Assembly: GCA_001516055.1 (NCBI GenBank)
Contig: LOEZ01000019.1
Location: 62,001-126,000 of the forward strand
Length of the DNA stretch: 64,000 nucleotides
Direction: 5' to 3'
Source: Gracilibacter sp. BRH_c7a
GTDB taxonomy: Bacteria; Bacillota; Desulfitobacteriia; Desulfitobacteriales; Syntrophobotulaceae
Below are positions 25,551-25,832 of the stretch, piece by piece; within the stretch, counting starts at the first letter, position 1; each line of letters starts with the position of its first letter. The notes beneath the pieces are model-generated. The model did not search any database. It was not told where the DNA came from and saw only the letters and a program-made list of their open reading frames with translations. The position numbers and the translations under genes are program-made.

Positions 25551-25612
25551 AAAAAGCGCTTTTTATCATTACGGACAAATCTGTCCATCGATGAAAAAAG
25601 CGCCTTTGCTCG
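25551..25612 (-). promoter_or_regulatory. nifH leader module 2: hexaloop hairpin overlapping a terminator
   Basis: On the minus strand GAGC-AAAGGC-GCTT forms a small hairpin with a six-base loop that has A at position 1 and G at position 4. Its 3' arm is also the 5' arm of a longer terminator-like stem that encloses a second hairpin (GGACA-GATT-TGTCC, 25573-25586) and ends in GCGCTTTTT. Mutually exclusive hairpins of this form are the mark of ANTAR-protein antitermination. This is inference from structure; only one hexaloop is seen per module, whereas published ANTAR targets have two close together. Confidence 0.55.
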
Positions 25613-25715
25613 CAAATATAAACTTTAACAGTAATAACACGTAAACAAAATCATCAACTAATGAAACAATTGTCTCATTAGCTTCTTAACTCCTTATCAA
25701 CAAATATAAACTTTA
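25613..25715 (-). repeat. 15-bp direct repeat flanking the nifH leader centre
   Basis: TAAAGTTTATATTTG (minus strand) occurs at 25701-25715 and again at 25613-25627. With the repeated GAGCAAnGGCGCTTT blocks it suggests that the leader arose by duplication of a regulatory unit. The first copy also supplies a possible -10 (TATATT, 25703-25708) with TTGCAC at 25725-25730. Confidence 0.6.
25658..25681. promoter_or_regulatory. 24-bp near-perfect palindrome upstream of nifH
   Basis: The arms CTAATGA and TCATTAG flank an ACAATTGT core, with one mismatched pair in the whole 24 bp. It lies about 20 nt downstream of the possible second nifH promoter, a good place for a repressor operator. As RNA it would also form a stem-loop. 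Confidence 0.5.
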
Positions 25716-25754
25716 CCCCTATTCGTGCAAAATGATTTTTCTATTGATATAAAC

Positions 25755-25793
25755 AAAAAGCGCTTCATGTATAAACATAAAGCGCCGTTGCTC
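25755..25793 (-). promoter_or_regulatory. nifH leader module 1: hexaloop hairpin overlapping a terminator
   Basis: On the minus strand GAGC-AACGGC-GCTT (25780-25793) has a six-base loop with A1 and G4. Its 3' arm overlaps a terminator stem (GCGCTTTATG and CATGAAGCGC) that ends in TTTTTG at 25755. The module starts only a few nt after the predicted transcription start. The terminator would also end transcripts arriving from the upstream methyltransferase gene. Confidence 0.55.
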
Positions 25794-25803
25794 AATTTCT
25801 CTT

Positions 25804-25832
25804 ATTATAGATCTTTATGTTTTAAAACACAA
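25804..25832 (-). promoter_or_regulatory. Promoter of the nif operon
   Basis: A perfect -10 TATAAT (25804-25809), a 17-nt spacer, and TTGTGT (25827-25832) as -35, on the minus strand directly upstream of leader module 1. The form is sigma-A type, not sigma-54. Confidence 0.65.

Follow-up and report, generated by a model that had tools for sequence, protein, structure and literature searches.

How anaerobic Firmicutes without a NifA-type activator adjust nif expression to ammonium is, to our knowledge, poorly understood. The locus described here raises this question for a nif operon on the minus strand of a 64,000-nt stretch of DNA (the window), whose leader holds two similar hairpin–terminator modules between the promoter and nifH. 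We asked whether these modules are attenuators, and which protein could open them.

The nif operon and its leader

The host genome (G000) is a 4.1-Mb draft of 98 contigs that is 95.8% complete. The genes on the minus strand follow the order nifH-nifI1-nifI2-nifD-nifK-nifE-nifN (Table 1), where we take the two PII-like genes to be nifI1 and nifI2 from their position and from knowledge of the family. Downstream frames on the same strand resemble nifB, a ferredoxin gene, modABC and a homocitrate-synthase-like gene (named by eye). The modABC-like molybdate transport genes (13594–16192, minus) and the homocitrate-synthase-like gene (12286–13572) may belong to the same operon as the nif genes. Directly 5ʹ of the leader, on the same strand, lies a TaqI/Eco57I-like N6-adenine methyltransferase gene (25891–27879, minus). 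Two riboswitches in the window, for TPP (12079–12180) and cobalamin (49496–49667, minus), scored above the gathering score.

The first-pass annotation had placed a good promoter before the leader. The best-scoring pair, TTGTGT-17-TATAAT (25832–25804), has a perfect −10 hexamer and a 17-nt spacer, but only three of six matches at −35. Transcription is predicted from this promoter to start at about 25796–25798, 3–5 nt ahead of module 1.

Each module consists of a GAGC-hexaloop-GCTT hairpin, with A and G at loop positions 1 and 4 (A1/G4), and its 3ʹ arm can instead pair as the 5ʹ arm of a terminator with a U tail. The two hairpins, which the first-pass annotation had put about 180 nt apart, are separated by 182 nt, and folding recovered the arm that it had described as common to hairpin and terminator. 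T1 and the hexaloop hairpin of module 1 are thus mutually exclusive. The fold of T2 (25607–25552) ends in GCGCTTTTTC, and the whole element ends with GCGCTTTTT about 32 nt upstream of nifH. Folded in isolation, the hexaloop hairpins reach only −2.4 kcal/mol each, far weaker than T1 and T2; the default would therefore be termination, and a hexaloop would need help to persist.

When one mismatch was allowed, the hexaloop motif occurred in the window only at modules 1 and 2 (expected, 0.07), and its only exact copies in the whole genome were the same two. The 14-mer GAGCAANGGCGCTT also had exactly two genome copies, both in the nif leader, and module 1 aligned with module 2 with a score of 39, which was reached by none of 200 shuffles. 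The 15-bp repeat reported to flank the centre was present as two exact copies of TAAAGTTTATATTTG, 88 bp apart. As no further exact copy was found anywhere in the genome, its use as a genome-wide operator was ruled out. The central hairpin was rejected as a decayed third module, its alignment to the modules being no better than that of shuffles. An Rfam scan of the leader for riboswitches, T-boxes and PyrR elements gave no match at the gathering score; at E 10, the best match was PyrR with 21.8 bits, compared to the 54 bits required.

Table 1. Features of the nif leader and the nif genes, with positions in the window
Feature	Position	Strand	Evidence or remark
nif leader	25513–25797	minus	two attenuator modules upstream of nifH (ATG 25513)
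Predicted −35 hexamer TTGTGT	25827..25832	minus	direct reading; best-scoring pair, 17-nt spacer
Predicted −10 hexamer TATAAT	25804..25809	minus	direct reading; best-scoring pair
Module 1 putative antiterminator hairpin GAGC-AACGGC-GCTT, hexaloop A1/G4	25780..25793	minus	R1 model 33.6 bits, E 5.7e-7 in window
Module 1 terminator T1, 12-bp stem and U tail	25755..25786 (stem 25786–25759, then TTTTG)	minus	folding, −16.8 kcal/mol
15-bp direct repeat copy 1, TAAAGTTTATATTTG	25701..25715	minus	exact match
Central 12-bp hairpin without proper U tail	25656..25683	minus	folding, −12.8 kcal/mol
15-bp direct repeat copy 2, TAAAGTTTATATTTG, adjoining module 2	25613..25627	minus	exact match
Module 2 putative antiterminator hairpin GAGC-AAAGGC-GCTT, hexaloop A1/G4	25598..25611	minus	R1 model 33.5 bits, E 6e-7 in window
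Module 2 terminator T2, long stem with inner hairpin	25545..25607 (fold 25607–25552)	minus	folding, −26.7 kcal/mol
nifH, first gene of the operon	24695..25513	minus	TIGR01287, 460 bits, above cut-off
nifI1 and nifI2 (PII-like)	23875..24594	minus	PII-type matches below equivalog cut-offs
nifD, nifK, nifE, nifN	18112..23856	minus	nifD, nifK and nifE above cut-off; nifN by position (nifN and nifK models matched below cut-off)

Conservation of the module before nif and amt genes

The arrangement of the modules before nifH is not a matter of chance. A module was defined by two elements, an A1/G4 hexaloop hairpin with a stem of 4 bp or more, and a terminator with a U tail into whose 5ʹ arm this hairpin extends. 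About 500 nt upstream of nifH were searched at 91 loci, comprising 80 close nifH relatives together with family and order homologues. The search found 42 modules in 28 loci, two of which (L027 and L093) belong to one genome, and 14 leaders carried two or more. Ten shuffled sets yielded 0–1 module per set and none with two. The nifH leader of L093 (G071) appears to have four modules, of which the module finder accepted two.

When the loop bases were left free, a loop length of 6 gave 56 modules, 40 with A1/G4 and 8 with G1/G4, compared to 8–18 modules without base preference for loop lengths of 4, 5, 7 and 8. A six-base loop with an A1/G4 preference is, as far as sequence can tell, the pattern left by recognition of hexaloops by a protein. 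For the covariation scores, 35 modules were cut to the same length. The antiterminator stem scored 0.73 versus 0.30 after shuffling, with both-side changes in 31 cells versus 7.9, and the terminator stem scored 0.85 versus 0.28, with 137 cells versus 45. Slid pairings gave far lower covariation for both stems. The percentage of paired positions is circular because the modules were chosen for pairing; the slid controls and the free-base test of loop length are better evidence. The length of the loop, its A1/G4 bases and the covariation of the paired positions all speak for recognition by an ANTAR protein, as the first-pass annotation had proposed.

To find further targets, we used R1, a covariance model of one module. 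In the window, both nif modules scored about 33.5 bits, and the whole-genome search reported only one of them. In this search, the leader of an amt gene ranked first (35.3 bits), nif module 1 second and another amt leader sixth, while the weaker matches between ranks 2 and 6 were plain terminators or lay outside leaders. The best genuine modules other than those of nif in the host genome thus precede two ammonium transporters. The first-ranked amt leader has a second hexaloop, GGC-AAAGAT-GCC, downstream of the R1 match. In the family, a gene-by-gene search found a module in 25 of 30 amt leaders, compared to 0.15 expected from shuffles. Matches bearing the hexaloop also precede nifI1-led nif operons in G003, G006, G007, G009 and G020, with 2–4 modules each; they sit before nifI1 rather than nifH because the nif operons of these relatives begin with nifI. 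Others lie upstream of amt, PII, a GSIII-like glutamine synthetase gene and an asparagine-synthase-like gene (named by eye). The loops are therefore conserved in relatives before both nif and amt, and the motif recurs before other nitrogen genes, which the first-pass annotation had suggested looking for.

R1 matches without a hexaloop (L179, L183–L185 and others) were excluded as plain terminators, and L180/L181, which have a perfect hexaloop, were excluded for their position at the 3ʹ end of a gene. In the host genome, a perfect solo module, AAGC-AAAGGC-GCTT with a terminator (L186, G000:C77:9403-9451), lies upstream of a soluble chemoreceptor-like gene, which suggests nitrogen-linked control of taxis or signalling.

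Solo hexaloops and the missing P1

The leader shares with the dual-hexaloop antiterminators of Enterococcus faecalis eut/EutV, Klebsiella nasF/NasR and Pseudomonas amiE/AmiR, as presented in PMC3369931, an A1/G4 hairpin that shares sequence with the 5ʹ arm of a terminator, a position before nitrogen genes, and an ANTAR protein in the genome. However, there is one hexaloop per terminator here instead of two separated by 5–12 nt, and the modules follow one another, every one with a terminator of its own. The first-pass annotation had seen no closely paired second hexaloop and had suggested a variant motif. Our search for the paired hexaloop P1 next to both modules, including the 5–12 nt upstream, was likewise negative, and whole groups turned out to have the solo hexaloop consistently.

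Upstream of 32 family modules, there were three A1/G4 hairpins compared to 0.8–1.6 in shuffles, and one of the three was the preceding module. The predicted −10 boxes in the family lie mostly 10–39 nt from the first hexaloop. In our nif leader the distance is 10 nt, and the predicted start site is so near module 1 that there is no room for P1. In other Firmicutes (L030, L032, L043, L301, L313 and L320), the same search found P1 and P2 in leaders of nif and amt, so the method is able to see P1.

These results bear on the explanation that the leader is a classical dual-hexaloop target in which P1 is disguised by another loop size or other bases, or in which transcription starts further upstream. 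We consider this unlikely: the near-background number of upstream hairpins, the short distance from the −10 box and the detection of P1 in control leaders all speak against it, whereas the dependence of EutV on P1 (PMC3369931) and the classical P1–P2 pairs of those other Firmicutes speak for it.

Because P1 was looked for and not found, the nif leader is not a dual-hexaloop ANTAR RNA by the published definition; judged by its motifs, it is a solo-hexaloop variant of the ANTAR target. Of the features described by Ramesh 2012, it has the A1/G4 hexanucleotide loop, carried by a stem of 3 bp or more, and the P2 stem overlapping an intrinsic terminator; a loop and stem of this kind, present once, also make up a single-hexaloop site in Walshe 2022. 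In EutV, induction is lost when P1 is deleted and falls strongly with a linker of 3 or 14 nt, the natural range being 5–12 nt (PMC3369931). The EutV structure 6WW6 shows one hexaloop per binding event, a single loop thus sufficing for binding, yet antitermination requires both (PMC8934654). By analogy with EutV, which depends on both hexaloops and on this linker (PMC3369931, PMC8934654), a solo hexaloop might be insufficient for antitermination. Here, in contrast to EutV, solo hexaloops are conserved on attenuators, which bears on the question raised by that structure, namely whether one hexaloop can act as an antiterminator.

P1 is also absent in the Sporomusaceae, where solo modules occur together with canonical ANTAR proteins keeping the phosphoacceptor Asp and Lys149, so that the disappearance of P1 and the changes in the protein are separate events. 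Nature thus appears to use the solo hexaloop on many attenuators, with canonical and divergent ANTAR proteins alike.

The ANTAR protein and the proposed control

An ANTAR protein, on whose presence the first-pass reading depended, is encoded in the host genome, where one such gene was found. It is a receiver–ANTAR protein (PF03861, 45.1 bits with a cut-off of 27.3; PF00072, 32.7 bits with a cut-off of 30.2), with 1s8n and 6wsh as the nearest solved structures. In its receiver, the phosphoacceptor Asp is replaced by Gly and the Lys by Ala, and family orthologues have Gly or Ser at the phosphoacceptor position. The input to this protein cannot be ordinary phosphorylation of Asp. Among the RNA contacts of EutV, the host protein and its family orthologues retain Arg142, Lys143, Glu160, Tyr164, Arg168, Met172 and Arg175, while Lys147, Lys149, Asn173 and Arg177 are replaced. 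In EutV, Tyr164 stacks on G4 and Lys149 contacts G4 (PMC8934654), so that the loss of Lys149 makes the affinity of the host protein for the hexaloop uncertain.

The family proteins form an orthologous group, 56–87% identical, in Dehalobacter-like and Syntrophobotulus-like genomes. The gene neighbourhood is similar across the family, with DnaD/DnaC-like genes, a membrane protein and a phosphodiester-glycosidase-like protein, and inspection by eye showed no sensor kinase adjacent to the ANTAR gene in these neighbourhoods; the host genome has a kinase/regulator pair at a distance of about 5 kb. Receivers without Asp are enriched with ANTAR domains, as in AmiR (PMC4395418), which shares with the host protein a receiver–ANTAR architecture without the phosphoacceptor. 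However, AmiR is controlled by the ligand-binding AmiC, and the genes neighbouring the host ANTAR gene suggest no such partner.

Modules and ANTAR genes occur together. In the family, R1 matches above about 26.7 bits placed modules in 13 of 17 ANTAR-bearing and none of eight ANTAR-less genomes (p 0.0005, in a test that ignores relatedness), a comparison weakened by the fact that seven of the eight also lack amt. Of the four ANTAR-bearing genomes without such matches, three (G015, G018 and G019) proved to have modules in the gene-centred search. Because of the missing amt genes, clostridial genomes were added to the comparison: in four that have nif and amt without ANTAR, none of ten amt leaders had a module, compared to nine of 18 in ANTAR-bearing genomes (p 0.01, relatedness ignored). 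Among 50 nifH genomes, all 25 that bear modules have an ANTAR gene, and none of the five without ANTAR has a module (one-sided p about 0.025, relatedness ignored). In some other Firmicutes, ANTAR and amt genes are no more than about 2 kb apart, at L308 (G094), L312 (G079) and L313 (G074), which suggests a functional linkage.

Alternatively, the attenuators could be real ANTAR targets served by another, canonical ANTAR whose gene is absent from the draft. The host protein lacks Lys149 and the receiver Asp and Lys, the Sporomusaceae with solo modules have canonical proteins, and an assembly that is 95.8% complete could miss a gene. Against this, the closed genomes G003, G004, G007 and G020 have modules before nif or amt and the divergent protein as their sole ANTAR; we give a second, canonical ANTAR as the cognate protein a low probability. 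Some Sporomusaceae (L127–L131) have a second, differently diverged ANTAR, changed at the positions of Arg142, Glu160, Tyr164 and Arg168. That the modules are plain terminators or chance hairpins without a regulator, conserved for transcription insulation only, is very hard to credit, since such elements, although these structures are good terminators and R1 also matches ordinary ones, would not select a 6-nt A1/G4 loop and a second covarying stem, nor would they sit between promoter and nif or amt solely in ANTAR-bearing genomes.

The nif leader is thus most probably a pair of serial transcription attenuators under the control of an ANTAR protein, and the acting protein is likely the sole ANTAR found in the genome, the Asp-less receiver–ANTAR protein conserved in the family. 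Without active ANTAR protein, T1 and then T2 would form and absorb the hexaloop sequence, and transcription would terminate about 45 and 250 nt downstream of the start site. When nitrogen is limiting, the solo A1/G4 hairpin of module 1 would be bound by an ANTAR dimer, and so would that of module 2 once the polymerase has passed. Each bound hairpin would withhold the 5ʹ arm of its terminator, so that the polymerase could reach nifH, and the same protein would open the modules, single or double, of the amt leaders. The modules are a concrete and widely conserved candidate for the control of nif and amt in the family and the Sporomusaceae.

The Geobacter regulators GnfK and GnfR have a role in antitermination. 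These names designate nitrogen-fixation regulators (PMC7962754), and ANTAR-type control of nitrogenase would be common to them and the host, whereas the Geobacter proteins form a phosphorylation-based two-component pair in another phylum. PMC3369931 likewise predicts that nitrogenase in Pelobacter carbinolicus belongs to an ANTAR regulon, also in another phylum and with a dual hexaloop. Our literature search found no paper tying ANTAR, nifH and antitermination together in Firmicutes, and the text of a term-seq paper on Sporomusa (PMC12456013) does not mention nifH.

More tentatively, and with somewhat less than even confidence, we propose that a clade-specific ANTAR without a phosphorylation site senses nitrogen through a ligand or partner protein and antiterminates on one hexaloop, and that nif expression is set by the number of serial solo modules. 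If true, antitermination on a single hexaloop by an Asp-less ANTAR would contradict the two-hexaloop requirement. Solo modules in series number two to four for nif, compared to mostly one for amt. At L241 (G009:C36, 4783–5077), up to four serial ANTAR-type modules lie ahead of a nifI1-led nif operon.
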